Shown here piece after piece: positions 12,402 through 60,851 of a DNA stretch of 64,000 nt. The stretch lies in contig NZ_JBCFYD010000002.1 of assembly GCF_038594945.1 (NCBI RefSeq), positions 1,116,001 to 1,180,000 of the forward strand. Reading direction: 5' to 3'. The stretch's first letter is position 1; the number at the start of each line of letters is the position of its first letter. The position numbers were made by a program, and so were the translations under genes. This DNA is from Fodinibius sp. Rm-B-1B1-1. GTDB lineage: Bacteria > Bacteroidota > Rhodothermia > Balneolales > Balneolaceae. A model generated the notes under the pieces. That model saw only the letters and a list, made by a program, of their open reading frames with translations. It had not been told where the DNA came from and made no database searches.

Positions 12402-12407
12402 AATTGT

Positions 12408-15400: not shown

Positions 15401-15494
15401 TACCTGAAACCGTATTATTTTGAGCTTCAGCTATACTGTAACCGGTTACAAACACCAGAATAAAAAGAATCCGCAAAGTGTATCTTAGTTTCAT
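12408..15494 (-). CDS. SusC/RagA-family TonB-dependent outer-membrane transporter
   Basis: TonB-dependent importer of oligosaccharides. 1028 residues: signal peptide (about 1-25), carboxypeptidase-regulatory-like domain (TVSGTVTDVETGEVLPGVNI), the SusC transition motif GGDIVVVGYGTQ, a plug with LIVVDGVPSQIGGLDRLDP and SVLKDASAAIYGSRAANGV, then a large beta-barrel ending in FNVGFSLKF with terminal phenylalanine. All hallmarks are intact. A LacI-type operator lies 66 bp before the start, so this is probably a regulated promoter for SusC-SusD and the GH30-GH2 genes beyond. Confidence 0.95.
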   Translation of the reverse strand: MKLRYTLRILFILVFVTGYSIAEAQNNTVSGTVTDVETGEVLPGVNISVQGTKAGTSTDRDGQYELTIDDLEGTLVFSFIGYKQKQVPIDGQTTIDVELNPTTISGGDIVVVGYGTQEEATVTGSVSSVQGADLEKTPTANLSNTFAGRTPGIIANSRSGEPGYDGSTLRIRGSATLNNNDPLIVVDGVPSQIGGLDRLDPSNIESVSVLKDASAAIYGSRAANGVILVTTKRGQEGDIQAEYSFNQGFSMPTRVPEMANSAEYATIANEISYYNNPNGGLNQRYTAEEIELFRSGSDPLNYPNTDWLEETLKPVTMQNRHNLAVSGGNENVQYRVSAGFLNQDGLYENGVTNYKQYNVRSNVDAEVNDNLDLGLTLSGRQEDRIYPQSPASSIFRSAYRAYPTVNAYYPENDLPSYGIEGSNPVMMVTDAGGTTKNPSYVLNGKLNGTYELPFVDGIYLDGFLSADKEFNINKSFAKPYTIYQYEEQSGDFNEEIVGGSSPNLTESQDNTSLVTANIKLNFEQEIAGYHNIEGFVGYEQSIYETDNFSATRLNFPTSVLPELSQGGSAAEDASNEGSSYRETRRNYLGRLSYNYQSKYMMELQFRYDGSSIFPEGQRYGFFPSVSAGWRISSEPWFSENVSFVDDLKIRASYGEVGSDRVPAFQYFNNYTLDNRYATGQSIKTSAYLTKLENSNITWEVSRKADIAIEAVLFENLTFETTVFHEKRENILTSRSGSIPQVTGIVNPYDSEPLVPDENIGEVENQGIEGQVQYEGGFSNEFQYTIGGNITYARNKVIFMDEAPNTLDYQSQTGKPLGSQLLYRAIGIFEDEEALENYPHVSGAQPGDLIYEDYDGDGEITADDRVRVDRSDSPEIIYGFNVGANWKNFDLSVLFQGQARVAQYILPESGDVGNFPNYWAENRWRPNDHSGTYPRVTTRASSSISGGNYPSTFWLRNSAFLRLKNVELGYNISPDLLPGVNWRGGRVYISGYNLLTFTPAKGFDPEGSSGSGQFYPQQRIFNVGFSLKF

Positions 15495-44287: not shown

Positions 44288-47257
44288 ATGATACCTATCA
44301 AAAAGCTACTCATTACGTCATGCCTGATCTTGGGTCTTACACTACCCGGATTAGCACAGACTTCCGTTTCGGGAACGGTAATAGATGCCGAAACAGGTGA
44401 AACCCTGCCCGGTGTTAATATTACGGTCAAAGATATGCCCGAACGCGGAACGGCTACTAACATAGACGGTGAATTCACCTTAAATGTACCTTCATTAGAA
44501 GAAACACTGGTCTTTTCTTTTGTCGGTTACGTTACCCAAGAAGTACCTCTTAACGGACAACAAAACATCGAAGTTTCGCTCTCTCCCGATGTACAACAGT
44601 TAGAAGATGTTGTTGTTATTGGTTACGGAACACAGGATGTCGATGATAATACCGGTTCGGTGACAGCCGTCAATGCTAGTGATTTTAACGAAGGAGCTGT
44701 TACGAATGCTGGTGAATTGTTTCAAGGTAAAGCCGCTGGTGTTAACGTCACATCAAATGATGGTGCACCCGGCAGTGGAACAACCATACGAATTCGCGGT
44801 GGGTCTTCCCTGTCAGCAAGCAACGATCCCCTCTTTGTGGTTGACGGGGTGCCTCTTGATGGGGAAAGTGTTTCAGGGATGCGTAATCCACTTAATACTA
44901 TTAATCCCAATGATATCGAATCAATTTCCATTCTGAAAGATGCCTCAGCAACAGCCATTTATGGTTCACGTGCTTCAAATGGTGTGATTCTTATCACTAC
45001 CAAGCGCGGCAGTGCCGAACGAGGATTTGAAGCCAGCTACACCGGCAAACTCTCGTATCAAACCAAAACCAAAGAGGTGGATGTTCTTTCAGCTAATGAA
45101 TTTCGTTCGACCGTTGAAGAAAACCTGAATCCATCTGCTCAACAACTACTCGGGGATGCAAATACAAACTGGCAAAGTCAAATTTATGATGATGCCATAA
45201 GTCAAGAACACAACATCAGTTTCTCGGGTGCAGCAAGTAACGTCCCATATCGCGTTTCTTTAGGGTTCAATGGCAGCAACGGTATCCTCAAAACATCCAG
45301 TATGGATCGTTTTACGGGATCTATCGCAGTGAATCCTTCTTTTCTTGATGATGACTTACAAGTTGATCTTAACTTAAAAGGATCACGTGTTGATAACCGG
45401 TTTGCTGAGCGTGGAGCCATTAATACGGCTATTACGTACGATCCCACAAAACCAGTAAGTGTAGAAAATAACTTTGGCAACTATTACGCCTGGACGGGGC
45501 AAAATGGTAATCCAATTTCGATTGCACCGGCAAATCCAATGGCATTGTTGGAACAAACTAAAGATGAAGCTACGACATATCGTACAATTGGTAGTGCTAA
45601 ATTTGACTATATAATGCCGTTCCAGGAAAATTTAACGGCTACATTAAATCTTGGTTTTGACTACTCTGATGTAGGAGATGGAAGTATCAGGATAACAGAC
45701 CAAGCTGCTTTTGACTATGTTGGAGAAGGCGAACCTAATGGTACACGTCAATCTTACGATCAACGAAAAGAAAATGAACTCCTCGATTTCTACCTGAACT
45801 ATAAAGAAGATTTGGAATCGATAAACAGTAATTTGGATGTAACAGCTGGATATTCCTGGGAACATCATTACGAAGAAAGTTCTAATTATGTTACCAATTT
45901 CAACACCTCCGATACGTTGGTTGTTGATGAGGACACTGACTTTAGAACTGAACATTATATTGTCTCATTCTTTGGACGAATGAACTATACGTTCAATGAT
46001 AAGTACTTATTAACCGCTACCTTGCGTCAAGATGGTACTTCCCGGTTTGCTGAAGATGAGCGCTGGGGACTCTTCCCTTCTGCAGCAGTTGCCTGGAAAA
46101 TACATGAAGAGTCTTTCTTAGATGGGTTTGAAGACCTTAACCAGCTCAAATTACGTTTGGGTTACGGGGTAACAGGTCAGCAGCGTATTGGCCAGGGTGA
46201 TTATCCCTATCTTGCACGATACACAGCCAGTGAATCCACTGCACGATATCTGTTTGGTAACGATTTTGTTACTACCCTGCGTCCCGAAGGTTATAACGCG
46301 AACCTAAAGTGGGAAGAAACGACAACCTATAATGTCGCCTTAGATTACGGGTTCTTTAATGACCGACTGTTTGGTTCTGTTGAAGCGTATCATCGCAGAA
46401 CGGACGATCTGTTGAATGTGATTCCTGTTCCCGCTGGTACAAACTTCACGAACCGAATCCTATCCAATATTGGTACGCTTGAAGTACAAGGGCTCGAGTT
46501 TAATGTAACAGGACGCTTGATATCTACCGAAGATTCGTACTTAGAAGTAGGATTTAACGCTTCTCACAACGTTAACGAAATCACCAAGCTTACCAATGTT
46601 GAGTCTGAAAACTACATTGGCGTAGAAACCGGTGGCATTTCTGGAGGCGTAGGTAACACCATTCAAATTCACAGTGAGGGGCATCCACGAAGTTCATTCT
46701 TTGTGTATGAACAAGTGTACGACGAAAATGGAAACCCCTTAGACGGCGTTTATGTTGACCGTAACGGTGACGGACAGATAACAGCTGATGATAAATACCG
46801 TTATGAAGACCCTGCACCTGATTTTACCTTTGGCTTCTCTTCCAGGTTTGAATACAAAAATTGGGATGCCTCTTTCTCTGCCCGGGCAAATGTTGGAAAC
46901 TATGTATACAATAACGTAGCGTCTAATCACACGGTATACGAGTTTATGTACAACAGTCAGGGCTATTTAAATAATGCAATGACCGACATCAACGATTATG
47001 GATTCAGCAATGCGCAATATATGTCTGATCACTATGTCGAAAACGCTTCATTCCTCCGAATGGATAATATGTCGGTAGGATACAGTTTTAATAATCTGTT
47101 TGACCGGGTTAAATCGCTGCGCGTTTCTGGTACTGTGCAAAATGCTTTTGTAATAACCAATTACAGTGGGCTTGACCCCGAGGTATTTAATGGCATAGAC
47201 AATGAAGTATATCCACGGCCACGTACCTTTATTCTCGGCCTTAGCCTGAACTTTTAA
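44288..47257 (+). CDS. SusC-family TonB-dependent transporter for starch/maltodextrins
   Basis: 989 residues: signal peptide (to about 24, LPGLAQ), carboxypeptidase-regulatory-like domain (SVSGTVIDAETGETLPGVNI), plug with EDVVVIGYGTQ, LFVVDGVPLDGESVSG and SILKDASATAIYGSRASNGV, then beta-barrel ending TFILGLSLNF. Imports maltooligosaccharides with its SusD partner 25 bp downstream. Preceded by two operators. Substrate is inferred from the GH13/GH65 genes. Confidence 0.95.
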   Translation: MIPIKKLLITSCLILGLTLPGLAQTSVSGTVIDAETGETLPGVNITVKDMPERGTATNIDGEFTLNVPSLEETLVFSFVGYVTQEVPLNGQQNIEVSLSPDVQQLEDVVVIGYGTQDVDDNTGSVTAVNASDFNEGAVTNAGELFQGKAAGVNVTSNDGAPGSGTTIRIRGGSSLSASNDPLFVVDGVPLDGESVSGMRNPLNTINPNDIESISILKDASATAIYGSRASNGVILITTKRGSAERGFEASYTGKLSYQTKTKEVDVLSANEFRSTVEENLNPSAQQLLGDANTNWQSQIYDDAISQEHNISFSGAASNVPYRVSLGFNGSNGILKTSSMDRFTGSIAVNPSFLDDDLQVDLNLKGSRVDNRFAERGAINTAITYDPTKPVSVENNFGNYYAWTGQNGNPISIAPANPMALLEQTKDEATTYRTIGSAKFDYIMPFQENLTATLNLGFDYSDVGDGSIRITDQAAFDYVGEGEPNGTRQSYDQRKENELLDFYLNYKEDLESINSNLDVTAGYSWEHHYEESSNYVTNFNTSDTLVVDEDTDFRTEHYIVSFFGRMNYTFNDKYLLTATLRQDGTSRFAEDERWGLFPSAAVAWKIHEESFLDGFEDLNQLKLRLGYGVTGQQRIGQGDYPYLARYTASESTARYLFGNDFVTTLRPEGYNANLKWEETTTYNVALDYGFFNDRLFGSVEAYHRRTDDLLNVIPVPAGTNFTNRILSNIGTLEVQGLEFNVTGRLISTEDSYLEVGFNASHNVNEITKLTNVESENYIGVETGGISGGVGNTIQIHSEGHPRSSFFVYEQVYDENGNPLDGVYVDRNGDGQITADDKYRYEDPAPDFTFGFSSRFEYKNWDASFSARANVGNYVYNNVASNHTVYEFMYNSQGYLNNAMTDINDYGFSNAQYMSDHYVENASFLRMDNMSVGYSFNNLFDRVKSLRVSGTVQNAFVITNYSGLDPEVFNGIDNEVYPRPRTFILGLSLNF

Positions 47258-47282: not shown

Positions 47283-49181
47283 ATGTTTAACACAAAACTA
47301 AAAATAGTTTCGGTAGCACTAATTGCCTTAATGGCTGTTACTGTTACTTCGTGTACGGACGATCTCAATACCAGTCCGATTGATGACGATGTTGAAACAT
47401 CAGAGTCAGTATACACCGGTCCAGATAAATACCGTCAAGTACTGGCTAAGTTATATGCAGGGTTTGCCACTACGGGTCAACAAGGACCTGCAGGTAATCC
47501 TGATATCCAGGGCATCGATGAAGGCTTTTCAAGCTATATTCGACAGCTGTGGGTTGCGCAAGAAATCTCAACAGACGAAGCTGTTGTAGGATGGAATGAT
47601 ACGGGCCTTCCCGAATTCAACTACCAAGAATGGAATGCCTCCAATGACTTTGTCATGGCGCTTTACAGCCGAATATACTATCAAATTGCCCTTGCTAACG
47701 AGTTTATTCGTAATGCCCAAGGCAATGACAACCAGCAGGTGCAGCAGTACCTTGCTGAAGCTCGTTTTTTGCGGGCACTTAGTTACTGGCATGCACTCGA
47801 TATGTTTGGTGGCAACGTACCATTTGTAACCGAAGACGATCCTGTTGGGGCCTACCAACCAGAACCAATTGGTGCACAGGAACTCTTCAATTACATTGAG
47901 ACTGAACTCACTGAAATTGAAAGTGAAATGCCTGCCCCTGGTGATAACGATTATGGACGTGCTGATCAGGGTGCCGTTTGGACGCTGTTAACGAAACTGT
48001 ACCTCAATGCAGAAGTGTATACTGATGAAGCTCGTTATGACGATGCCGTTACTTATGCCAACAATGTGATTGATCAAGGTGGTTATACCCTGGATGAAGA
48101 TTATGAGCACTTATTCATGGCCGATAACCATGAAGCCGAAGGATTGATTTTCTCTATCCCCTTTGATGGTGTGAATACCCAAACGTACGGTGGAACAACC
48201 TTCATCCACCATGCTGCTATTGGTGGTAATATGAATCCATCTAATTTTGGCACAGGCGAAGCCTGGGCCGGACATCGCACTACTCCGCAGTTTGTAGATA
48301 AACTGGATGAGGGTGAACGTTTTGAAGGATACGAAACAGAAAATCCTGGTGGAAACAACGAAGTATACGTTCCCGGTGGATATCAACCAAATAGTGGTTA
48401 TGGAGCCGAATGGTCTCCGGCTGATGCTCCCCCCCTTGTCTCAGAAAATAATGACGATGTATACACTGGTTACTTTTATGTGAACAGCGCAGGAGCAGAA
48501 ATACAAATTACTGCTGAACGAGACTGGAATGAATCATACGGTGGAGCGGATGGAAATCTCGAAGCAGGTGGAAGTAATATCATCTTACAAAAACCAGGTC
48601 TTCACAGAATGACTGTAGATCTAAACAACATGACCTACGAGGTTGATGCTGCTGATAGCCGAAACACCTTGTTTACTGACGGCCAGGAAAAAGAAATTCC
48701 AACACTGGCAGAATTTACAAATGGCTATGGTCTTGCAAAGTGGAAGAATGTTACACAAAGTGGCCAGTCAGGATCAGATGCCGTTTTTGTAGATGTTGAC
48801 TTCCCAATGTTCCGCCTTGCCGATGTCTACCTAATGTACGCAGAAGCCACATTGCGTGGAAATTCGGGTGATATGAACAAAGCTGTTGGTCTTATAAACG
48901 ATCTCCGAGAACGTTCATACGGTTCTGATATAGCAGATATCAGTTCTGGTGACCTTACACTCGAATTTATCCTCGATGAACGAGGAAGAGAACTGTATTG
49001 GGAAGGCCATCGCCGAACTGATCTCGTTCGATATGGACAATTTACCGGCAACGAATATGTTTGGTCATGGAAAGGAGAATCCTCTGATGGGAGAGGCACA
49101 GATGATCGGTATAACCTGTTCCCTATTCCTGCTGCCGATGTAAACTCAAACCTAAACTTAACCCAAAACCCGGGCTACTGA
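47283..49181 (+). CDS. SusD-family starch-binding lipoprotein with an inserted SusE/F-like module
   Basis: 632 residues, lipobox VTSC (C24). SusD features: EARFLRALSYWHALDMFGGN, GRADQGAVWTLLTKLYLNAE, and at the end LDERGRELYWEGHRRTDLVR with LFPIPAADVNSNLNLTQNPGY. Residues about 358-456 form an extra module absent from ordinary SusD proteins: EVYVPGGYQPN, EWSPADAP, DDVYTGYFYV, DGNLEAGGSNI and VDLNNMTYEV. The same pattern forms the first module of the SusE-like protein encoded next (residues about 161-256). The chain returns to SusD sequence afterwards, so this is an insertion, not a frameshift. It probably adds a second glycan-binding site at the lid of SusC. Confidence 0.92.
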   Translation: MFNTKLKIVSVALIALMAVTVTSCTDDLNTSPIDDDVETSESVYTGPDKYRQVLAKLYAGFATTGQQGPAGNPDIQGIDEGFSSYIRQLWVAQEISTDEAVVGWNDTGLPEFNYQEWNASNDFVMALYSRIYYQIALANEFIRNAQGNDNQQVQQYLAEARFLRALSYWHALDMFGGNVPFVTEDDPVGAYQPEPIGAQELFNYIETELTEIESEMPAPGDNDYGRADQGAVWTLLTKLYLNAEVYTDEARYDDAVTYANNVIDQGGYTLDEDYEHLFMADNHEAEGLIFSIPFDGVNTQTYGGTTFIHHAAIGGNMNPSNFGTGEAWAGHRTTPQFVDKLDEGERFEGYETENPGGNNEVYVPGGYQPNSGYGAEWSPADAPPLVSENNDDVYTGYFYVNSAGAEIQITAERDWNESYGGADGNLEAGGSNIILQKPGLHRMTVDLNNMTYEVDAADSRNTLFTDGQEKEIPTLAEFTNGYGLAKWKNVTQSGQSGSDAVFVDVDFPMFRLADVYLMYAEATLRGNSGDMNKAVGLINDLRERSYGSDIADISSGDLTLEFILDERGRELYWEGHRRTDLVRYGQFTGNEYVWSWKGESSDGRGTDDRYNLFPIPAADVNSNLNLTQNPGY

Positions 49182-49225
49182 TTTAGTCTGAGTCAAACGA
49201 TTTTAAATATTAAAACCGAATTACT

Positions 49226-50308
49226 ATGAAGAAACTAAGCCTACTATCATTTTTATTGGCCGGGCTCCTGATCTTCTCCTCTTGCGACAAAGGGGAGCTT
49301 GGGCCTGTTGCTAACTCTTCAGATCCTGAAGCACCCGAAATAAGTTCTCCCTCATCTGGTGAAAGTTTTGCCCTTAATGAGGAAAATGCCGAAGAAGTTG
49401 CAATGACTATCGAATGGTCTAAACCTGACTTCGGTTTCTCATCGGCTCCAACATACACCATTGAGTTTGCCGAAGCTGGCAGTGACTCTGGTTTTGTTGA
49501 ACTCGATAGAACGCAACAAACTTCTTATGATGTTGTAACACAAGACCTAAATAATGCCCTTATCGGTGAAGAATTCGCTACAGGTCAAGAGCACTCAATT
49601 GATTTAAGAGTAGTTGCTTCTCTTCCGGACGAATCAGTTTCACCAGTAATTTCTACAGCGAAAACAATAGCAATTACGCCTTACTTTGCAGAGATTAGCT
49701 ATCCGGAAATTTACGTACCAGGTGGCTATCAAGGAGCCAGTAATGAAGGCACTGACTGGACTCCAAGCGATGCTCCTGCCCTTTACTCTTTTGAAGACAA
49801 TGATATGTATGAGGGCTATGTATATATGGCTGGTACAGATAATCTTTTTAAGTTTACTCCTGATCCCACTTGGGATAATGGCGACTGGGGTGATACCGGA
49901 GCTGATGGTACCTTAGATGAAGGTGGAGACAATATTTCTCTTACCGAATCTGGATACTATTATATGGAGGTAGACCTAAATGACCTGACCTATTCAGTAA
50001 CAAATACCGAATGGGCTGTTACTGGTAGTGCTACACCAAATGGATGGGCCAATGAAGATGAAGGTATATCAGACCATAATATGACATATGATTCAGCAAA
50101 TAAGGTGTGGACTATTGATTTGAACTTGTCTGCAGGTGAAATGAAATTCCGTGCAAACGATGCGTGGGATATAGAATATGGTGATGACGAAGGTGACGGC
50201 AGGCTTGAATTAGGTGGTAGTAACATCGCTATTGAAGAAGCCGGTAATTATACCATTGAACTTGACCTTAGTGAAGCACCATTTAGTTACACGGTTACAC
50301 AAAACTAA
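49226..50308 (+). CDS. SusE-like surface lipoprotein with two starch-binding-type modules
   Basis: 360 residues, lipobox FSSC (C20). Layout: N-terminal SusE-type Ig domain (about 30-150, EVAMTIEWSKPDFGFSSAPT), first module (161-256, EIYVPGGYQGASNEGTDW ... MEVDLNDLTYSV), second module (about 259-358, EWAVTGSATPNGW ... MKFRANDAWDIEYGDD ... YTIELDLSEAPFSYTV). The second is the classical SusE/SusF starch-binding pattern. Captures starch on the cell surface. It ends the susCDE set; a strong terminator follows at 50331. Confidence 0.88.
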   Translation: MKKLSLLSFLLAGLLIFSSCDKGELGPVANSSDPEAPEISSPSSGESFALNEENAEEVAMTIEWSKPDFGFSSAPTYTIEFAEAGSDSGFVELDRTQQTSYDVVTQDLNNALIGEEFATGQEHSIDLRVVASLPDESVSPVISTAKTIAITPYFAEISYPEIYVPGGYQGASNEGTDWTPSDAPALYSFEDNDMYEGYVYMAGTDNLFKFTPDPTWDNGDWGDTGADGTLDEGGDNISLTESGYYYMEVDLNDLTYSVTNTEWAVTGSATPNGWANEDEGISDHNMTYDSANKVWTIDLNLSAGEMKFRANDAWDIEYGDDEGDGRLELGGSNIAIEEAGNYTIELDLSEAPFSYTVTQN

Positions 50309-50381: not shown

Positions 50382-53252
50382 ATGCGACGTATTACTACTA
50401 CGCTCCTATTTATATTGGGGCTTATTATTACAGCGCAGGCGCAAGTTATCACAACCGTTCCAGAATTTCCTACCTTCGACCAGTCTGTGACCATTACCTT
50501 TGACGCCACCGAAGGGACCGGCGGACTCGAGGACTACTCCGGGGATGTCTATGCCCACACAGGAGTCATTACTGATGAAAGTACAGACAATTCAGATTGG
50601 AAATATGTTGTTGCCGAATGGGACGAAAATATCGAAAAAGCGAAAATGGAGCGTGATGCCAATAATCCGGATCTTTATACCTTGGAAATCACCCCCTCTA
50701 TTCGGGAGTACTATGGTGTATCTGAAGAAGAAACAATCGAGCAGATGGCATTCGTTTTTCGAAGCAGCGACGGAGCGCTGGAAGGCAAGGATGACGACGG
50801 AGAAGATATTTTTGCTACTGTTTACGAAGGATTCACAGTCGAATTCGACAATCCGACCAAAGACCCATCATTTTACGAGCTAAACAGCAGTATCACGATT
50901 GAAGGCAGCGCCATAACCGACAGCACAGAATACGAACTCACACTCTTTATCGATGGACAAGAGGAAGAACAGGTTACAGACCAAAGTCTCTCGTACAATT
51001 TTAACGCATCCACTAAGGGAAACTACACACTTACACTGGCTGGTACTGACGGTGCCACCTCAGATACGTTGTCACAGCAACTAATTGTAAATCCCGAAAT
51101 GACCGAACAGGCACGCCCACAAGGTCTGCAAGACGGTATTACCTACGTGGATGACAATACCATTCGGCTTTCGCTTTTTGCGCCGGACAAGGAGTTTGTC
51201 TACGTAATTGGTGGTTTTACGAATTGGAAAATTGATCCTAACTACTTCATGAACAAAGAAGTAGTAAATATTGATAGTAGCTATTACTGGATTGAATTTG
51301 ATATACCCGATCCTAACAAGGAATACGGCTTTCAATATTTGGTGGACGGAGAAGTTCGCGTGGCCGACCCCTATTCGGAAAAGATCCTACATCCCGAGGA
51401 CCAATATATATCCGAAGAAACATATCCCGGCTTACAACCTTACCCTAAGGAAACTGACTTTGCGGTTGGCATACTACAACCTGGCAAAGCTGAGTACCAA
51501 TGGCAGCACGAGCAATATGATCGCCCGGAGGATGACGAGCTTGTTATTTATGAATTGCTGGTTCGAGACTTTGTAGAAAATCACGATTACAAAACCCTTA
51601 CCGATACCTTGGACTATCTCGACCGACTGGGTGTTAATGCTATTGAACTGATGCCGGTGATGGAATTTGAGGGCAATAGCAGCTGGGGCTACAACTCCTC
51701 TTTTTTGTTTGCAACGGATAAATATTACGGCCCTGCTGAAGACCTTAAGGAATTCATTGACGAAGCCCATTCACGCGACATGGCGATTATATTGGATATC
51801 GTGCTGAACCACGTGTATGGTCAATCACCGCTGGTACGGCTCTGGAATGAGGGAGATTACGGGCGACCTATAGCTGAGAATCCATACCTAAATGTTGAAT
51901 CTCCCAATCAAACCTATTCCTGGGGATATGATTTCAATCACGAGTCACAAGCCACCAAGTATTACGTGGATCGAGTCACCCGCTACTGGCTGGAGGAATT
52001 TAATGCAGATGGCTACCGCTTTGATTTCACCAAGGGATTCACTCAAAATTCCGGAGACGGATGGGATCGGGATGATGATCGCATCCGGCTTCTTAAGCGC
52101 ATGGCCGATCAGCAGTGGGCAGTAGATGACTCTTCATACGTAATTCTTGAACATCTGACTGCTAACAGCGAAGAGCAGGAACTCTCCAACTATGGCATGC
52201 TACTTTGGGGCAACCAACACTACAATTACAAACAAGCCTCCATGGCGTATAACGACAACGAGGAAAGCGATTTTTCGGGCATTTATTATGAAGAGCGCAG
52301 CTGGGATGCCCCCAATTTACTGGGCTATATGGAAAGTCATGACGAAGAGCGTCTAATGTTTGAAAACCTTAACTACGGCGACAGCAATAGTAATGGCAAC
52401 TATGATATCACAGACGAAAATACGGCATTAAATCGCGTGAAGCTCTCAGCGGCCTTTTTCTTTCCCGTACCTGGGCCTAAAATGTTCTGGCAGTTTGGGG
52501 AATTAGGCTACGATTACAGCATTAATCACTGTGAAGATGGCTCTGTTAATGATGCCTGCCGGACATCGCCCAAACCCATTCGATGGGATTATTACGACGA
52601 TGAAGAACGTAAAAAACTGTATGACACCTACAGAGCCCTTATCAAACTTCGTACGTCGCATGAAGCCTTTACATCCAAAGAATCGGAGGTGACAATGAAC
52701 GTCGATGGTACGACCAAACGAATTGCGATCAGCCATCCCAAAATGGAAGTAACTATTGCCGGTAATTTTGATGTTGAAGATGCCGATTTACAGCCCCAGT
52801 TTTCGCAGTCCGGTGAATGGTACGATTTCTTTTCCGGGGATACGCTGTCGGTCAGTGATACCGATACCACCATTACCATGCAAGCGGGTGAATTTCATAT
52901 TTATACGACCGAGAAGTTTGAAAAGCCGGCCGGTAATCCAGTTTCGTTTGAGAGTAAAAATGGTGACGGAGAAGGTAAGACCACTGAGAAATTAGAGCTA
53001 CACCAAAACTACCCTAATCCATTCAATCCATCCACTACTATTCCCTACGACCTGCCCGAGGATGCCAAGGTACATTTGGAAGTCTTTAATATCTTGGGAC
53101 AAAAAGTTCTTGAACAAGATTTAGGCGAACAGACTGCCGGAGCCGACAAAGAAATCACCGTGGATTTTTCTCATCTTTCCTCGGGCGTATATATTTACCG
53201 AATACAAGCCGGTGGCGAGATCAAATCCAAAAAAATGATGATGGTGAAGTAA
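50382..53252 (+). CDS. Secreted GH13 alpha-amylase/pullulanase-type enzyme with type IX sorting domain
   Basis: 956 residues. Signal peptide (to about 21), N-terminal beta-sandwich modules of Bacteroidota amylases (about 22-240), a CBM48-like module (about 245-345, TIRLSLFAPDKEFVYVIGGF), GH13 barrel (about 395-790) and a C-terminal type IX secretion domain (about 875-956: LHQNYPNPFNPSTTIPYDLP ... GVYIYRIQAGG ... KKMMMVK). Catalytic residues: D548 in GYRFDFTKGF, E590 in VILEHLTAN and D654 in ESHDEER; the usual NHD reads SHD. It is predicted to be exported by type IX secretion and act on starch outside the cell. Precise linkage preference cannot be told. Confidence 0.9.
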   Translation: MRRITTTLLFILGLIITAQAQVITTVPEFPTFDQSVTITFDATEGTGGLEDYSGDVYAHTGVITDESTDNSDWKYVVAEWDENIEKAKMERDANNPDLYTLEITPSIREYYGVSEEETIEQMAFVFRSSDGALEGKDDDGEDIFATVYEGFTVEFDNPTKDPSFYELNSSITIEGSAITDSTEYELTLFIDGQEEEQVTDQSLSYNFNASTKGNYTLTLAGTDGATSDTLSQQLIVNPEMTEQARPQGLQDGITYVDDNTIRLSLFAPDKEFVYVIGGFTNWKIDPNYFMNKEVVNIDSSYYWIEFDIPDPNKEYGFQYLVDGEVRVADPYSEKILHPEDQYISEETYPGLQPYPKETDFAVGILQPGKAEYQWQHEQYDRPEDDELVIYELLVRDFVENHDYKTLTDTLDYLDRLGVNAIELMPVMEFEGNSSWGYNSSFLFATDKYYGPAEDLKEFIDEAHSRDMAIILDIVLNHVYGQSPLVRLWNEGDYGRPIAENPYLNVESPNQTYSWGYDFNHESQATKYYVDRVTRYWLEEFNADGYRFDFTKGFTQNSGDGWDRDDDRIRLLKRMADQQWAVDDSSYVILEHLTANSEEQELSNYGMLLWGNQHYNYKQASMAYNDNEESDFSGIYYEERSWDAPNLLGYMESHDEERLMFENLNYGDSNSNGNYDITDENTALNRVKLSAAFFFPVPGPKMFWQFGELGYDYSINHCEDGSVNDACRTSPKPIRWDYYDDEERKKLYDTYRALIKLRTSHEAFTSKESEVTMNVDGTTKRIAISHPKMEVTIAGNFDVEDADLQPQFSQSGEWYDFFSGDTLSVSDTDTTITMQAGEFHIYTTEKFEKPAGNPVSFESKNGDGEGKTTEKLELHQNYPNPFNPSTTIPYDLPEDAKVHLEVFNILGQKVLEQDLGEQTAGADKEITVDFSHLSSGVYIYRIQAGGEIKSKKMMMVK

Positions 53253-53395: not shown

Positions 53396-55264
53396 ATGCC
53401 CATAAATCACAACTTTCGTTCGCTGATTCTCTCACTTTTTTTCACGCTCTTTCTCTTTGGATCCGCCCATGCCCAAGATTATAATATCGATCGTGTGGAG
53501 CCGCTTCATTGGTGGGTTGGGATGGAAAATCCCGAGCTCCAGCTTATGATCTACGGTGATGATGTGGGGGACCTCTCTCCTGCTATTGATTATAAAGGCG
53601 TTATCATCAAACGTATCCAAAAGGTAGAAAACGACAACTACCTGTTTGTCTACCTGGATATCTCCAAGGATGCTGAGCCCGGCTCCTTTGATATTACCTT
53701 ATCGAAAGATGGCAAACAGGAACTTAGTCACGCCTATGAACTCAAAGAGCGGGAGGAAAACTCTGCTCAGCGTCAAGGATTCAACTCCTCGGATGTGATG
53801 TACTTGATTACGCCTGATCGTTTTGCCAACGGTAACTCCAACAACGACAGCATAGCGGGTTACCAGGACTCCCTCGATCGGGATGATGATTACGGACGTC
53901 ACGGTGGGGATATCCAAGGCATTATTAATCATCTGGATTACATCGAAGAAATGGGCTTTACGGCTATTTGGCTGAATCCCATAAAAGAAAATGCCATGAA
54001 AAGTTCCTCCTATCATGGCTATGCCACCACCGATTATTACAAAGTAGATCCACGGTATGGAAGCAATGAGCTTTATAAAAAACTGAGTGAAGAAGCTGAA
54101 AAACGGGGTATCAAGTTGGTTATGGATATGATTATGAACCACTCGGGCTCTAACCACTGGTGGATGAATGATCTGCCTACCGAGGACTGGGTGCATTATC
54201 CCGATGAATATCAGCAAACCAATCACCGGCGAACCACACTACACGATCCTTACGCCTCTGATATCGACACAAAACGAATGACAGACGGCTGGTTTGTGAA
54301 ATCGATGCCCGACTTAAATCAGGATAATCCCCTGTTGGCCGACTACCTAATTTACAACAGCCTCTGGTGGATCGAGTATGCAGGACTCGGTGGCATTCGT
54401 CACGATACCCATCCCTATGCCGGACAGGAATTTATGGCTGAGTGGACCTGCCGCATTATGGAAGAGTATCCGAACTTTAATATTGTAGGTGAAGAATGGA
54501 GTGTTGATCCGTTAGTAATATCTAAATGGCAGCGCGGCAGCGACAAGCCCGACGACTTTAGTTCCTGCCTGCCCAGCCTGATGGACTTCCCCATCCAGAC
54601 CACCCTCGTTGATGCCTTAACCAGCGAAGAAAGCTGGGGCAGTGGATTTGTGGACCTATACGAAACCCTGAGTTTTGATTATGCATATGCCAATCCCTTT
54701 AATATGGTGATCTTTCCCGATAATCACGATATGGATCGTTTTTATCGTCAGGTAAACCAAGACTTGGACCTGTACAAAATGGGACTGGCCTATATTATGA
54801 CGATGCGGGGTATTCCGCAGTTTTACTACGGTACGGAACTACTAATGAGTAACGAAAAAGAACACGACCACGGACAAATCCGCGAAGACTTCCCCGGGGG
54901 ATGGGAAAGCGATACCAAAAACGGTTTTACGGGTAAAGGCTTATCGGATAAGCAAAAAGAGGCCCAATCATTCGTCAAAAAGCTGGTCAACTGGCGAAAG
55001 AACAATCCCGTTATCCACGATGGCAAGCTCATGCAATATGCGCCCAATCATGATGGTACCTATGTTTACTTTCGATATAACGAAGAAAAATCGGTAATGG
55101 TGGCTTTTAACAAGGCGGAGGAAGCAAAAACATTAGACACCGATTACTACTACGAGCAACTGGGTGGTTTTAGCAAAGGAACCGATGTTATTACTGGCCA
55201 AACGTATGAGTTGGACACCCTCGAAATTCCAGCCCGTTCAGTGCTTATCCTGGAGTTGGAATAA
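53396..55264 (+). CDS. GH13 cyclomaltodextrinase/neopullulanase-type enzyme (SusA-like)
   Basis: 622 residues with a signal peptide (to about 26, GSAHAQ). An N-terminal cyclomaltodextrinase-type domain (about 30-125) precedes a GH13 barrel starting VMYLITPDRFANGNSNND. Catalytic residues: D337 in GGIRHDTHPYAG, E366 in NIVGEEWS, D445 in PDNHDMDR. This matches SusA, the periplasmic enzyme that trims imported maltodextrins. No lipobox or sorting domain, in keeping with a periplasmic place. Last gene of the plus-strand unit. Confidence 0.92.
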   Translation: MPINHNFRSLILSLFFTLFLFGSAHAQDYNIDRVEPLHWWVGMENPELQLMIYGDDVGDLSPAIDYKGVIIKRIQKVENDNYLFVYLDISKDAEPGSFDITLSKDGKQELSHAYELKEREENSAQRQGFNSSDVMYLITPDRFANGNSNNDSIAGYQDSLDRDDDYGRHGGDIQGIINHLDYIEEMGFTAIWLNPIKENAMKSSSYHGYATTDYYKVDPRYGSNELYKKLSEEAEKRGIKLVMDMIMNHSGSNHWWMNDLPTEDWVHYPDEYQQTNHRRTTLHDPYASDIDTKRMTDGWFVKSMPDLNQDNPLLADYLIYNSLWWIEYAGLGGIRHDTHPYAGQEFMAEWTCRIMEEYPNFNIVGEEWSVDPLVISKWQRGSDKPDDFSSCLPSLMDFPIQTTLVDALTSEESWGSGFVDLYETLSFDYAYANPFNMVIFPDNHDMDRFYRQVNQDLDLYKMGLAYIMTMRGIPQFYYGTELLMSNEKEHDHGQIREDFPGGWESDTKNGFTGKGLSDKQKEAQSFVKKLVNWRKNNPVIHDGKLMQYAPNHDGTYVYFRYNEEKSVMVAFNKAEEAKTLDTDYYYEQLGGFSKGTDVITGQTYELDTLEIPARSVLILELE

Positions 55265-55495: not shown

Positions 55496-57061
55496 TTATT
55501 CGGCAGGTTCAAGAGCATCTGGCTCGTTCATTTCTTGTGCGGCTTTGTCATCCACAAAAATCATCATGAGGGCAGCAAACGCCATTGCTCCCCCTCCTGC
55601 TATCAGGGCAAAGATTGCTTCCCCACTAAAGAGATTTCTAAGCATGGTTCCCAAAATACTGGCCGCCACAATCTGTGGAATCACAATAAAGAAATTAAAC
55701 AATCCCATATACACGCCCATCTTCTTGGCAGGAATGGCTCCCGAAAGAATAGCATACGGCATAGCCAAAATACTGCCCCAGGCTACACCAATGCCTAACA
55801 TAGGCAGAATGAGCATCATGGGGTCACTTATCAGATAGATACTTGCAAGGCTTACTCCTCCTATCAACAGGGAAACGGCATGCACAATCTTGCGACTGGT
55901 CAATTTTGCAAAATACGGCAATGCAAATGCAATAAGAGCTGCAAACCCATTGTAGATAGCAAATAACATTCCCACCCAATCGGCTCCCTCATTATAGAGC
56001 GCCGTAGTCGTATCACTGGTTCCGTATACATGCGACGTAACCGCAGCAGTGGTATAAATCCACATGGCAAATAATGCAAACCATGAAAAGAATTGCACCG
56101 CCGAAAGCTGAACCATCGTTTTGGGCATACTTAAAAAATCAGAAACAACCACGACCAAACCGTGTTCATCTTTGCCCAATGTCTGCTGCATAAACCCGGC
56201 AACAGCCATAACCAACCCAAATACTGCTACACCAATGCTAAATATGTAAAGCTCTTGCTCAAAATTAGCGCCATAAATATAATAGGTTAACGCAAGTCCG
56301 GCAGCAATTAAAACTCCACCAATGGTGAACTTTCGCTGCGCAGTACCGGTATCAATCTCTCCTTTTTTCGCGGCATCAATGATAGACCCTTCTCCCGGTT
56401 CATTTTCTGAATATCGATCAAGCTCTTCGGGTGGATACTCTTCTGTCGTCCAAACCGTCCATAGAACAGCTCCCAAAAAAGTAGCTGCACCAATATAAAA
56501 CGACCATTGTACGGCCGGCGGAATTTTACCAGGTCCAGCGGTATTGGCCAATCCCACCCAGTTGGTCATAATATACGGCAATGCTGATGCAATCACGGCC
56601 CCTGTACCAATAAAGAAGGTCTGCATAGCAAATCCTTTGGTATGCTGGTCAGCGGGAAGCATATCCCCCACAAAAGCTCGAAATGGCTCCATAGAAATGT
56701 TAATCGAGGCATCCATAATCCAAAGCATACCCGCTGCCACCCACAACACAGGCGAATTGGGCATGATAATTAATGCCAGTGACGCAAAGATTGCTCCAAA
56801 TAGAAAATAGGGCCTTCGACGACCCAGGCTATTCCAAGTGCGGTCGCTCAGGTGACCAATAATGGGCTGGACGACCAATCCCGTAACCGGAGCCGCAATC
56901 CACAAAATGGGAATATCATCCACGCTTGCACCGAGAGTTTCAAAAATACGGCTAACGTTGGCATTTTGGAGAGCAAATCCGAATTGTATCCCCAAAAAGC
57001 CAAAGCTCATATTCCAGATATCCCAAAAACTTAGCTTAGGCTTTTCCGTCTGTTTATTCAT
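55496..57061 (-). CDS. MFS (GPH/SLC45-like) maltose transporter
   Basis: 521 residues, about 12 membrane segments. It starts LSFWDIWNMSFGFLGIQFGF, then QPIIGHLSDRTWNSLGRRRP, the pattern of Bacteroidota inner-membrane sugar transporters next to maltose phosphorylases. A charged cytosolic loop lies around residues 205-250. It brings maltose and short dextrins into the cell for GH65. Last gene of the lacI-led unit. Confidence 0.88.
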   Translation of the reverse strand: MNKQTEKPKLSFWDIWNMSFGFLGIQFGFALQNANVSRIFETLGASVDDIPILWIAAPVTGLVVQPIIGHLSDRTWNSLGRRRPYFLFGAIFASLALIIMPNSPVLWVAAGMLWIMDASINISMEPFRAFVGDMLPADQHTKGFAMQTFFIGTGAVIASALPYIMTNWVGLANTAGPGKIPPAVQWSFYIGAATFLGAVLWTVWTTEEYPPEELDRYSENEPGEGSIIDAAKKGEIDTGTAQRKFTIGGVLIAAGLALTYYIYGANFEQELYIFSIGVAVFGLVMAVAGFMQQTLGKDEHGLVVVVSDFLSMPKTMVQLSAVQFFSWFALFAMWIYTTAAVTSHVYGTSDTTTALYNEGADWVGMLFAIYNGFAALIAFALPYFAKLTSRKIVHAVSLLIGGVSLASIYLISDPMMLILPMLGIGVAWGSILAMPYAILSGAIPAKKMGVYMGLFNFFIVIPQIVAASILGTMLRNLFSGEAIFALIAGGGAMAFAALMMIFVDDKAAQEMNEPDALEPAE

Positions 57062-57110: not shown

Positions 57111-58493
57111 TTATTTTTCAAGAACTATATATGCATTGGCGCCAAGTGTAATGCCATCACTGTTAACGGTGATCGTATCATCATTAAATACATCGGTGTA
57201 TTCCGTTTCTTCCACTAAATCGGGGAAAGAAATATCCTGCTCACTACCTTCAAAATTCAGGATCACAAATACTTCATCATCCCCTTTTACCCGTTTATAG
57301 GCATACGTTTGACCGTCTGATTCGGTATCTACTGGTACAAAATCACCACCATACTGACCATTCCAGAGCGCTTTATTACGATCTTTCAGCTCAAACAGCG
57401 TTTGGTAGAAATCTTCATACTCTTCGTCCTCCCATTCGATGGGATCTTTTTGGAAAAACTCCAGCCGTTTATCCAAGGCTGTCTCCTGTCCGCTATATAC
57501 CAACGGCATACCATCAATGGTAGCAGTTAACACTGCAAAATTTTCGAAATTATCACCATAAAGCTCTTCGTCGGTACCATTCCAGGAATTTTCATCGTGA
57601 TTGGAAGTGAAATAGAGACGATATGCATGATCTGGAAATCGCTCCTGATCTTTTTTTATCTGTGCTGTAATCTCATCAACCGGAGCCTCACCCGCTGCAA
57701 CTTCTGTAATTAAGTGAAAGAACTCCCATGTGTAGGTAGCATCGAACCAAGGATGCATCTCAGGGGTATTCCATTCGGCCAGCCAAAAGAAATCTTTTTT
57801 TGATTCATTCACTTCAGGAATAGCTCGTTTCCAAAAGTCTAATGGAATATCATGTCCCGCGTGATCTACGCGATAGCCGTCAATATTGGTCTCTTCAATC
57901 CAAAACTTCATTTTTTCGATCATCTTATCCCACAGCTCTTTGTTTTCATAATTGAGCTGCGCAATATCAGTCCAGTCCGCCTCATAAGTAATAGCACCGG
58001 TAGAATCCTTCATGTAGTACTCAGGATGCTCTTCGGTCCATGGATGATCCCAAGCCGTATGATTGGGCACCCAATCTAAAAACAACTTCATATCATGCTC
58101 ATGAGTTGCTTCAACCAATTCTTTGAAGTCTTCCATTGTCCCAAAGTTTGGATTTACAGCCGTGTAATCCTTGATAGAATAATAGCTGCCCAACTCTCCT
58201 TTGCGCTTCTTTTCTCCGATGGGATGGACTGGCATCAACCAAAGAATATCGATCCCCATTTCTTTAAGACGTGGCAGGTGCTCCTGAAACGCTTTGAAGG
58301 TACCCTCTTCGGTATATTGCCGAATATTGACCTCGTACATATTAGCACTTTTCGACCACTCCGGGTGCTCAATATGCTCTTGCGGATCTGCTTGCTGCTC
58401 GGAAGTATTACTACAGCCCAGAGTAAACACAGAAACCGAAAACAGTAATACGACCGGTAGTATTCGGGTATAAAATGAGGAACGATTTATCAT
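57111..58493 (-). CDS. GH13 alpha-amylase lipoprotein
   Basis: 460 residues with lipobox TLGC (C27). A compact GH13 barrel: MYEVNIRQYTEEGTFKAF, LFLDWVPNHTAWDHPW, nucleophile D210 in DGYRVDHAG, acid/base E240 in FWLAEWN, and D300 in TSNHDEN, then a short C-terminal beta domain. Hydrolyses alpha-1,4-glucans, on the cell surface or in the periplasm. It has no binding modules, so SusD/SusE probably hold the substrate. 36 bp from GH65. Confidence 0.92.
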   Translation of the reverse strand: MINRSSFYTRILPVVLLFSVSVFTLGCSNTSEQQADPQEHIEHPEWSKSANMYEVNIRQYTEEGTFKAFQEHLPRLKEMGIDILWLMPVHPIGEKKRKGELGSYYSIKDYTAVNPNFGTMEDFKELVEATHEHDMKLFLDWVPNHTAWDHPWTEEHPEYYMKDSTGAITYEADWTDIAQLNYENKELWDKMIEKMKFWIEETNIDGYRVDHAGHDIPLDFWKRAIPEVNESKKDFFWLAEWNTPEMHPWFDATYTWEFFHLITEVAAGEAPVDEITAQIKKDQERFPDHAYRLYFTSNHDENSWNGTDEELYGDNFENFAVLTATIDGMPLVYSGQETALDKRLEFFQKDPIEWEDEEYEDFYQTLFELKDRNKALWNGQYGGDFVPVDTESDGQTYAYKRVKGDDEVFVILNFEGSEQDISFPDLVEETEYTDVFNDDTITVNSDGITLGANAYIVLEK

Positions 58494-58529: not shown

Positions 58530-60851
58530 TTATCGGCTCAGTACCGATGCTGCTGCCACGGCTTCTTTGTCCGGCGAAACCGTATATTCGTCTCCGTAAA
58601 TAAATAAGGTTGTTTCACTGCCCTTCTCACAGCTGACCGTTACCCGCTCCGGCTCAACACGTACATTCAGTCGATTACCATTATGCAGCATTTTAAAAGA
58701 ATAGGCATCCCACTCTTCGGGTAACGAAGGCGTAAAATACAGCTGACCATCTTTGGCCCGCTTGCCGGCAAATCCTTCTACAATCGACATCCACGTCCCG
58801 GCCATACTGGTGATGTGCAACCCCTGGTGGACCTCCTTGTTATAGTCATCTAAATCGAGACGTGCCGTCCGCAAATAAAGCTGATAAGCCTTGTCCTCGT
58901 AGCCAAGCTTCGAGGACATTATCGCATGAATACAGGGCGAAAGCGACGATTCATGTAACGTACGAGGCTCGTAAAAATCAAAATTGCGCCGAATCGTATC
59001 TTCATCAAAATGATCCTCAAAAAAGTACAAACCCTGCACCACATCGCCCTGCTTGATAAAGCAAGAACGCAGAATACGATCCCACGACCAGTACTGGTTA
59101 ATAGGTCGCTCACTTTCATCGAGCTCACTGGCTGTTCGCTGAACTTTATCAAGATAGTTATCCTGCTGTAAGAAAATCCCAAGATCCCCATTTTCACCAA
59201 GATAAACCCGATCTAAAATATCTTTCCAGCGCTCGGTTTCCGTATCATCATACGATGTTTTCTGCTGAATCTCTTCGAATGCTTCCGGCGCTTCTTCACG
59301 CACCTTATCAACCACTTCCATCGTATAGCGCATGCACCAGCAAGCAATATACGAGGTGTACCAGTTGTTATTGATATTATTTTCATACTCATTGGGACCC
59401 GTAACGCCAAGCATAACATACTTCTGACGCTTTTCAGAGAAGTTAAAACGCTGGCTCCAAAATCTGGAGATCGCAATTAGTACTTCGAGTCCCGCTTCTT
59501 GGAGATATGATTCATCGCCGGTGTGACGGATATAGTTGTAAATAGCATAAGCAATAGCACCATTACGGTGGACTTCCTCAAACGTAATTTCCCACTCATT
59601 ATGGCACTCTTCCCCATTCATTGTCACCATGGGATACAATGCAGCACCATCTGTAAATCCGAGCTTCTCGGCATTTTCAATAGCTTTGGGCAGGTGCCGG
59701 TAGCGGTACCACAATAGCTGCCGAGCCACCTTGTCAGGGGCCGTATTCAAATAAAACGGCAAGCAGTATGCCTCGGTATCCCAGTAAGTACAACCGCCAT
59801 ACTTTTCGCCGGTAAACCCTTTGGGACCAATATTTAAGCGCTCATCTTCTCCCGTATAGGTTTGATAGAGTTGAAAGATATTAAATCGGATGCCTTGCTG
59901 GGCCTCATCATCCCCTTCAATATGGACGTCGCTTCCTTCCCAAATCGTTGCCCAACGGTCGATGTGTTCTTGTTTCAGCTGATCGAATCCAACGGAAGCC
60001 ACATCAGCCACAGACTGCTTAGTATGCGAATGTAAGCGCTTACGATCATGGTTCAAAGAAGAAGCGACCACCGCATATTTATGCAAAGAAATTTCATCAT
60101 TCTCCTCTACTGGTAATTCATACAATTGTTCAGCAAACATAGAAGAGATAGAGCCACTGCCGCCAATATCCAATTGCTGGCCATTTTTGTAGAGCTCGTT
60201 TTTCATTGCCGCCGACACATGAAAGTCGAGCTTTTTTGTCTTGGTCGTTATGACTCCACCATTATCAAACGAATTTTGCTGCAGCTCATCCCAAAACAGT
60301 TCATCATAGTTAGCATCCTCGTTATACACTTTGCCATTGATATATGGCTTAAGTGAAACAGAACCTGAAAAATTAAGCGGCTTTATAGCATACTCAATCA
60401 CTCCCACTTCAGACCGCTCCATACTTACAAAGCGACAAGCTTCAATCGCAATTTTATTGCCACTTTCGAGCTCAGCTACAAAACTCCGTTGCAGCAAGCC
60501 CTGTTTCATATCCAAAGTTCGCGTAAAATCAGAGATCGTACATTTAGCCAGATCTAACTGCTCACCGTTAATATGGACATCAATACCAATCCAATTAACC
60601 GAATTAAGCACCTTCGCAAAATATTCGGGGTACCCGTTTTTCCACCATCCTACTTTGGTGGGATCAGGATAATAAATACCCCCGATATAGCTGCCCTGCA
60701 GCGAATCGCCACTATAGTGTTCCTCAAAATTAGCACGCTGCCCCATATGTCCGTTACCAATACTAAAAATACTTTCTGAAGAACGCTGACGGGCAGGGTC
60801 AAAACCTTCTTCAACAATTTTCCATTTATCCGTTTTTAAATACTTATTCAT
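58530..60851 (-). CDS. GH65 maltose phosphorylase
   Basis: 773 residues, no signal peptide, so cytosolic. Converts maltose and phosphate to glucose and beta-glucose 1-phosphate. Layout: N-terminal beta-sandwich, (alpha/alpha)6 barrel, C-terminal beta domain. General acid E488 in GPNEYENNINNNWYT corresponds to E487 of the Lactobacillus brevis enzyme; phosphate-site motif LHESSLSPCIHA and substrate segment KYGGCTYWDTEAYCLPFYL are present. The pgmB gene 27 bp upstream handles its product, which favours maltose phosphorylase over trehalose or kojibiose variants. Confidence 0.93.
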   Translation of the reverse strand: MNKYLKTDKWKIVEEGFDPARQRSSESIFSIGNGHMGQRANFEEHYSGDSLQGSYIGGIYYPDPTKVGWWKNGYPEYFAKVLNSVNWIGIDVHINGEQLDLAKCTISDFTRTLDMKQGLLQRSFVAELESGNKIAIEACRFVSMERSEVGVIEYAIKPLNFSGSVSLKPYINGKVYNEDANYDELFWDELQQNSFDNGGVITTKTKKLDFHVSAAMKNELYKNGQQLDIGGSGSISSMFAEQLYELPVEENDEISLHKYAVVASSLNHDRKRLHSHTKQSVADVASVGFDQLKQEHIDRWATIWEGSDVHIEGDDEAQQGIRFNIFQLYQTYTGEDERLNIGPKGFTGEKYGGCTYWDTEAYCLPFYLNTAPDKVARQLLWYRYRHLPKAIENAEKLGFTDGAALYPMVTMNGEECHNEWEITFEEVHRNGAIAYAIYNYIRHTGDESYLQEAGLEVLIAISRFWSQRFNFSEKRQKYVMLGVTGPNEYENNINNNWYTSYIACWCMRYTMEVVDKVREEAPEAFEEIQQKTSYDDTETERWKDILDRVYLGENGDLGIFLQQDNYLDKVQRTASELDESERPINQYWSWDRILRSCFIKQGDVVQGLYFFEDHFDEDTIRRNFDFYEPRTLHESSLSPCIHAIMSSKLGYEDKAYQLYLRTARLDLDDYNKEVHQGLHITSMAGTWMSIVEGFAGKRAKDGQLYFTPSLPEEWDAYSFKMLHNGNRLNVRVEPERVTVSCEKGSETTLFIYGDEYTVSPDKEAVAAASVLSR
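60031..60044. promoter_or_regulatory. Operator-like site inside the GH65 gene, TGTAAGCGCTTACG
   Basis: Differs from the ideal TGTAAGCGCTTACA by one base and lies within the coding sequence (codons for RKRLH on the minus strand). It may be an auxiliary operator or a chance match. Confidence 0.35.

Follow-up and report, generated by a model that had tools for sequence, protein, structure and literature searches.

Introduction

When no substrate is bound, the SusD lids of the levan and dextran systems stand open and can move, and a protein of its own at the SusC lip serves as a mobile glycan catcher (PMC7618045). The same source treats the handover of chains from surface binding proteins to SusCD as open, and presents a single stable SusE/F-SusG-SusCD complex as disputed for starch (PMC7618045). 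We analyzed a stretch of 64,000 nucleotides from Fodinibius sp. Rm-B-1B1-1 (contig NZ_JBCFYD010000002.1; hereafter the window, whose positions are used throughout), in which an alpha-glucan-type SusD carries, embedded in its own chain, a module of the SusE/X25 type. The logic would be similar to that of the levan and dextran utilisomes, with a mobile glycan-grappling domain at the SusCD mouth; there, however, the binding domain is a separate protein docked on SusC (PMC7618045), whereas here it is part of SusD.

A related arrangement is found in SusG, likewise a Sus surface protein with an inserted carbohydrate-binding module: its CBM58 lies within domain B, and removal of this module lowers activity on insoluble substrates (PMC11267923). 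The host in that case is an enzyme and not a lid, and the likeness drawn here is one of arrangement; by analogy, SusG may serve as a precedent for the building principle. The SusDs of Bacteroides thetaiotaomicron (B. theta; PDB 3ck7-3ckc) and Bacteroides vulgatus (3jys) share with the window SusD the core fold and the aligned residues R87, W104, Y302, and W328, but, unlike it, show no embedded module in the alignments. SusE/SusF (PF16411) and X25 modules (PF22058; 2wan, 4fe9, and Ruminococcus bromii Sca5/Sas20 7rpy), in turn, share the sequence of the module and most of its maltotriose-contact positions; the known ones reside in separate binding proteins, scaffoldins, and enzymes, whereas this one lies within the transporter lid. 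Searches of an open-licence paper collection turned up no account of a SusD with embedded SusE or X25 modules. The module and SusD both belong to known families; their arrangement is a new variant, and the insertion is conserved in relatives. We propose, with a probability of roughly 0.6, that by means of this module the lid of the window SusD would act as a starch-catching arm.

A SusE/X25-Type Module Embedded in SusD

The comparison involves SusD, the adjacent SusE, and their parts:

47283..49181, plus strand: SusD, alpha-glucan type, 632 residues, with embedded module (PF07980; closest solved structures, 3jys and B. theta SusD 3ck7)
47283..48311, plus strand: SusD core part 1, residues 1-343, containing R87, W104, Y302, and W328 (from alignment)
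48351..48650, plus strand: embedded SusE/X25-type module, residues about 357-456 (from BLASTP, profiles, and the predicted model)
48654..49178, plus strand: SusD core part 2, residues 458-632 (from alignment)
49226..50308, plus strand: SusE-type surface glycan-binding protein, 360 residues (PF14292, 70.3 bits; PF16411, 49 bits)
49676..50014, plus strand: SusE module 1, type 1 (YVPGxYQ...W.P), relative of the SusD insert
50018..50299, plus strand: SusE module 2, type 2 (WxxxGSATPxGW), residues about 265-358

An earlier note on this DNA had claimed a motif-by-motif match between SusD residues about 358-456 and the neighboring SusE, and both the match and its location hold. In BLASTP, SusD residues 360-454 align with SusE residues 161-258 at 45.9% identity (E 2.4e-20), and all five motif pairs are present (SusD/SusE: EVYVPGGYQ/EIYVPGGYQ, EWSPADAP/DWTPSDAP, YTGYFY/YEGYVY, DGNLEAGGSNI/DGTLDEGGDNI, and VDLNNMTYEV/VDLNDLTYSV); the module itself spans residues 359-456. 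The Smith-Waterman score of the insert against SusE is 225, as opposed to a mean of 37 (standard deviation 6.7, maximum 81) for 1000 shuffles of the insert, which rules out a chance likeness, and the SusD core minus the insert scores only 38 against SusE. The partner of the insert is SusE module 1; module 2 differs.

By family profiles, SusD passes the PF07980 (SusD/RagB) gathering score over its core (128.4 versus 23.1 bits), and the SusE neighbor at 49226-50308 passes that of PF14292 (70.3 versus 25.2 bits). The X25 model (PF22058, X25_BaPul_like; cut-off 27 bits) is passed at 28.3 bits by the whole SusD and at 32.7 bits by the module alone, while the cut-off of SusF_SusE (PF16411; 27.5 bits) is missed at 24.9 bits (whole SusD, at about residues 361-464) and 25.9 bits (module alone). 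Among other SusDs, PF16411 fails for the one-module protein of locus L044 (24.9 bits) and passes for the two-module L051 (50.4) and the three-module L063 (83.9). The NCBIfam model NF033071 (starch SusD, an "exception" model) gives 451.7 bits against a cut-off of 725, and for this reason we file the window SusD only as an alpha-glucan-type SusD; the insert-free relative L034 is also below, at 458.1 bits. The closest solved relatives of the module by profile are weak matches, namely the pullulanase X25 2wan (E 4e-4), SusF 4fe9 (0.002), and Sca5X25-2 7rpy (0.32). The relation of the module to X25 and SusF comes from these sequence profiles, the Foldseek and VIA lists being filled by SusD-family chains.

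The Host Is an Ordinary SusD

SusD matches of this locus type (E <= 1e-30) occur in 13 of 58 genomes, the window's own included; seven have the module and six lack it, and three of the module-free orthologues come from the window's genus and the same locus. The alignment of 13 orthologues breaks cleanly between FVDKFD and a ...R..F.TDGQ motif, where insert-free forms have about five residues. Relative to them, the extra segment comprises residues about 344-457 and starts about 15 residues past W328. SusC is alike in size with and without a SusD insert (988-1012 residues, 13 loci). In 3jys, the closest solved SusD, which has no module, just 13 residues separate the two aligned halves.

An AlphaFold model of SusD built from 112 sequences has a mean predicted local distance difference test score (pLDDT) of 93.4 and a predicted template modeling score of 0.90; an earlier model from 13 sequences (pLDDT 54.6) was not used. 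Residues 351-460, whose block means exceed 90, are predicted to fold as a beta domain of their own on a core that superposes on B. vulgatus 3jys (Z 51.8, 1.8 Å, 464 residues) and B. theta SusD 3ck9 (Z 49.0, 2.0 Å, 474 residues); the placement of the module relative to this core is a prediction only. The insert-free orthologues, the model, and the PDB matches together rule out that the segment is part of the normal SusD fold. In the core, R87, W104, Y302, and W328 align with B. theta R81, W98, Y296, and W320, and D106 with N101. Four of the five B. theta residues R81, W98, N101, Y296, and W320, which we take to be its starch ligand residues, are thereby identical, the result by which we class the protein as alpha-glucan type. 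Such ligand positions are generally conserved in marine alpha-glucan SusDs (PMC11093988).

Modules Recur at One SusD Loop

The comparison set consists of the best 80 loci of one scan of genome contigs, a choice biased towards this protein, and 13 loci of the window and its relatives. L040 and L049, which duplicate genomes G004 and G007, were dropped before counting, leaving 91 SusDs (those of L122 and L123 are identical to those of L041 and L042). Among these 91 alpha-glucan SusDs, 36 have no module, 15 have one, 39 have two, and 1 has three, and wherever modules are present they lie in the same loop. The earlier note's view that ordinary SusDs lack the segment is borne out by these 36 and by 3jys; with modules in the other 55, the insert is shared but not universal. 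The one-module SusDs come from Balneolota (9) and flavobacterial genomes (6), the two-module SusDs from Saprospiraceae, Lewinellaceae, Prolixibacteraceae, Lentimicrobiaceae, and other Bacteroidota, and one of the module-free proteins (L085) has an unrelated insertion at another place. A two- or three-module SusE-like gene lies in the locus for 29 of the 36 module-free, 14 of the 15 one-module, and 24 of the 39 two-module SusDs, as well as for the three-module SusD; several loci end too early to tell. As judged from sequence, one SusD loop repeatedly accepts SusE/X25-type modules in Balneolota and Bacteroidota.

A less biased sample of the phylum yielded a SusD at E <= 1e-60 in 100 of 394 genomes. 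The best SusD has profile-verified modules in 13 of these 100 (8 of 12 in the window's family, 5 of 88 elsewhere). A further 85 were judged by a frame length of <= 609 residues, and none of the 15 among them that were read by profile has a module. Paralogues may be missed, because three candidates per genome were scored. In G321 and G350, an insert of about 80 residues lies in the same loop with no detectable module likeness.

At L129:1501-3372 and L130:1435-3306, the SusD insert of about 80 residues in this loop is unlike SusE/X25 and is either strongly diverged or a different domain. The three-module SusD (L063:7947-10526) has 860 residues; each of its modules has W-K-W, and modules 2 and 3 are 52% identical, which suggests a duplication within the insert.

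Relation to the Adjacent SusE

The earlier note had suggested copying between these neighboring genes. Recent duplication, or gene conversion that still continues between SusD and SusE, would draw support from their shared locus, their 46% identity, and module trees that place the Balneolota inserts near Balneolota SusE module 1. The window module is, however, about 61-62% identical to the orthologous G004 insert. Of the eight other Balneolota inserts, six (up to 62%) resemble it more than its own SusE does (46%), and two, L033 (46%) and L032 (40%), do not. SusE module 1 of another genome reaches 54%. Across the set, the SusE-type or five-module gene of the same locus is the best such match for only 5 of 83 SusD modules. 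Because the insert is closer to those six inserts, its likeness to SusE does not demonstrate copying between these two genes. The G004 insert and the count of 5 in 83 rule out a recent copy from the adjacent SusE, and we regard duplication or continuing conversion between the pair as highly improbable.

The SusE modules of L029, L030, and L031, from the insert-bearing genomes G009, G010, and G030, are strongly diverged (at best 24-28% identity to the module of the neighboring SusD); the SusD insert of these genomes is ordinary despite this.

Module Types and History

SusE module 1 defines type 1 (YVPGxYQ...W.P), whereas type 2 (WGxIGSATPxGW) comprises the majority of second modules in SusE, together with those that make up three-module SusEs; profile comparison relates the two types (99.5%). 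In all 39 two-module inserts, module 1 has its best SusE match in the first module of a two-module SusE and module 2 in a second module (34-69% identity, with 16-40% between the two modules within one SusD), so that these inserts repeat the module order of SusE. The Balneolota inserts are type 1, with mean identities of 46% to Balneolota SusE module 1 and 41% to the first modules of two-module inserts. The flavobacterial inserts are type 2.

The module trees are short (95-106 columns) and leave many forks open; quick trees of 244 and 112 modules were built, then careful subset trees. The type-1 tree was built from all 9 Balneolota inserts, 22 of the 39 modules that come first in two-module inserts, and 34 of the 56 that come first in two-module SusEs. 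Its type-2 counterpart holds all 6 flavobacterial inserts and 17 of the 39 second modules on the SusD side and, on the SusE side, the groups E1of3 (12 of 12), E2of3 (6 of 12), and E3of3 (6 of 12) with 12 of the 56 SusE second modules. Both careful trees exclude the strongly diverged SusE modules of L029, L030, L031, and L054, with many others, and the module groups were named after the identity table had been seen. Alignment A2 contains 77 of the 91 SusDs and 35 SusE modules, excluding near-duplicates, partial rows, L062, L063, L085, and L089; A3 and A4 contain 30 of 31 and 36 of 39 of the chosen modules.

In the careful type-1 tree, the modules that come first in two-module inserts group together (97/92), and a single SusE row falls among them. 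A 94/95 branch sets this group and the bulk of the remaining SusE rows apart from the Balneolota inserts, on whose side also stand 11 of the 12 SusE modules from Balneolota and one from Neolewinella. Support for the Balneolota inserts as a single group is low in this tree (73/0) but 97 in the quick tree.

These trees bear on whether a single ancestral two-module insertion, followed by loss of one or both modules, could account for all inserts. Such a history is compatible with holding the Balneolota inserts together with two-module first modules, which is not rejected in the careful tree (p 0.32) and in the 112-row quick tree gives a better result than the free tree (log likelihood +38; approximately unbiased test, p-AU 0.84). 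Holding the Balneolota and flavobacterial inserts together is likewise not rejected (p 0.21, quick tree), and one flavobacterial-group insert, L044, falls near the second modules (82/78). On the other hand, the flavobacterial modules have a mean identity of 51% to E1of3 versus 37% to the second modules of two-module inserts, and all six held with those second modules as one group are rejected (p-AU 0.003). The SusD core tree, from which insert columns were excluded, requires 11 presence/absence changes, 8 of which well-supported branches make unavoidable, and module number has to change 13 times; gains and losses are indistinguishable. We therefore doubt a single insertion; our reading is that at least two insertions occurred at the same loop, plus losses, and importers seem to have gained such an arm more than once. 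For the Balneolota inserts, the best type-1 tree would be compatible with an old copy taken from a Balneolota-lineage SusE. Grouping them with the SusE modules of Balneolota is not rejected (p 0.40, careful tree), nor is a shared origin with the two-module inserts.

Ligand Residues, Selection, and the Proposed Role of the Module

Sca5X25-2 holds maltotriose by W620, K654, W661, N684, and N687, among others (PMC9112005). These positions align with W377, Q408, W415, G429, and N432 of the window SusD, the register of the ligand columns being obtained by counting along the printed alignment with the offset that places W, K, and W together. Every Balneolota insert (9 of 9), every flavobacterial insert (6 of 6), and every first module of a two-module SusE (56 of 56) has the tryptophan pair. 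Two-module SusDs outside one exceptional clade (see below) keep it in 27 of 27 first modules and 26 of 27 second modules, and L063 keeps it in all three. By this alignment, the aromatic platform of the window module is intact, the asparagine N432 is retained, and one polar contact is changed. With both ligand tryptophans kept, it is reasonable to suppose that the window SusD merges two functions.

Selection on the module was assessed as the ratio of nonsynonymous to synonymous substitution (dN/dS) in 12 pairs, of which 2 are identical, 3 are saturated in the module, and 7 are finite. The four usable pairs give module values of 0.08, 0.08, 0.09, and 0.25; three further values of 0.05, 0.12, and 0.13, the window/G004 pair among them, have dS > 2. 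All four usable pairs, as well as L050/L056, have a core value below that of the module. If the insert were a tolerated passenger with no function, one could understand that the module evolves faster than the core in 9 of 10 non-identical pairs (L060/L061 are nearly equal, 0.96 versus 0.97), that close relatives lack the insert, and that one clade lost the ligand site. Against a passenger stand dN/dS below 0.3 in all seven finite pairs (four usable), the tryptophan pair conserved outside that clade, and the recurrence of the same module class at the loop in two phyla, and we consider this explanation improbable.

In the starch-catching reading, the module would be a second alpha-glucan site on the moving lid, working alongside SusE and near the pore. 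With the lid open, it could catch a chain and then present it to the SusD site; an X25 module on the lid would provide a catching site close to that site. Fusion to SusD would fix the stoichiometry and require no extra docking surface on SusC; a lid bearing a binding module covalently would fix geometry as well. If this function is confirmed, the lid itself can be the catcher. The orthologues with and without the module within one genus, together with the clade that lacks the site, are ready comparisons for uptake, binding, and lid motion.

Several observations weigh against this role. One X25 module of Sca5 did not bind alone (PMC9112005), although SusE and SusF modules do. Most alpha-glucan SusDs in the phylum sample have no module. 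The contact lysine, present in 7 of the 9 Balneolota inserts, is Gln in the window and in L029, and at one Asn position the window module has Gly (G429). Identity to G004 is 61% in the module versus 83% in the core, the module evolving faster, and dN/dS is unreliable for the window lineage, where pairs have dS > 2, are saturated, or are identical. Finally, the exceptional clade lacks the tryptophan pair in 12 of 12 first and 10 of 12 second modules, gaps being counted as lacking, with both modules retained.

The loss of the lysine from the window copy, and the modules kept by those 12 two-module SusDs with their tryptophans lost, speak for another role, in which the module would be a protein-protein or spacing element that docks SusE, a surface amylase, or a neighboring SusCD and does not bind starch. 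By the title of Foley et al. (2018), cited in PMC11093988 and PMC10316084, SusE of B. theta reportedly promotes the uptake of starch even apart from binding it, which would point the same way. Yet outside that clade only one of the modules examined lacks the tryptophan pair, and SusC size is unchanged by the insert. For the window protein we judge this role unlikely, if far from negligible, and prefer the starch-catching arm.

A Clade That Keeps the Modules and Lost the Site

The tryptophan pair of module 1 is kept in 27 of the 39 two-module SusDs. The 12 without it (L062, L065, L068, L077, L079, L080, L082, L083, L084, L089, L092, and L119) coincide with a Saprospiraceae-type group of 12 rows in the core tree (support 84). 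A five-module SusE/F-type gene lies in nine of their loci: L080 (10257-12053), L062, L065, L079, L082, L083, L089, L092, and L119. The five-module gene was seen only in loci whose two-module SusD lost the module 1 ligand tryptophans. W-K-W is kept in 38 of the 45 modules of the nine proteins, and the one tested for it, from L080, has a type IX secretion tail. PF14292 (SusE) was searched for in the genomes of these nine loci, most of which are metagenome assemblies whose completeness is not given. Eight gave no match and the ninth a weak one, in a frame of 907 residues; four comparison genomes with a two-module SusD and a SusE neighbor gave one match each. We count the apparent loss of SusE as one event and not nine, because the loci belong to one clade.

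A replacement of a lost SusE by the SusD modules was considered and dropped, as the same clade lost the site in its SusD modules and the five-module proteins mostly keep it. Since the modules are kept and the site is lost, the clade modules must serve something else, and we infer that they act in docking or spacing. This shows that an insert can be kept for reasons besides sugar binding. Taking all bearers together, we give about even odds to a broader picture in which SusE/X25 modules have settled repeatedly in one loop (from none to three, of two types, by at least two insertions), most bearers, the window SusD among them, have a lid with a grappling arm, and in the Saprospiraceae-type clade, where SusE was seemingly exchanged for the five-module protein, the modules turned into a docking or spacing part.

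Gene Neighborhood

The gene set is an alpha-glucan utilization locus, with SusC, SusD, SusE, and two GH13 genes in this order on the plus strand; the minus strand carries genes for an MFS transporter, another GH13 enzyme, and a GH65 enzyme. Besides SusD and SusE it contains:

44288..47257, plus strand: SusC-type TonB-dependent transporter, 989 residues (Pfam Plug, CarbopepD_reg_2, TonB_dep_Rec_b-barrel)
50382..53252, plus strand: GH13 alpha-amylase-type enzyme with type IX secretion tail, 956 residues (alpha-glucan context)
53396..55264, plus strand: GH13 cyclomaltodextrinase-type enzyme
55496..57061, minus strand: MFS sugar transporter
57111..58493, minus strand: GH13 enzyme with SusG-type C-terminal domain
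58530..60851, minus strand: GH65 enzyme

A second SusC/SusD pair, at 10692-15494 near GH2 and GH88 genes, has no such module by Pfam. The tailed GH13 enzyme of 50382-53252 has 956 residues here versus 1270-1291 in G004, G009, G010, G003, and G008. No Pfam domain (E <= 0.001) was found in the additional part of the G004 enzyme; in these five genomes the roughly 330 additional residues lie ahead of the secretion tail.

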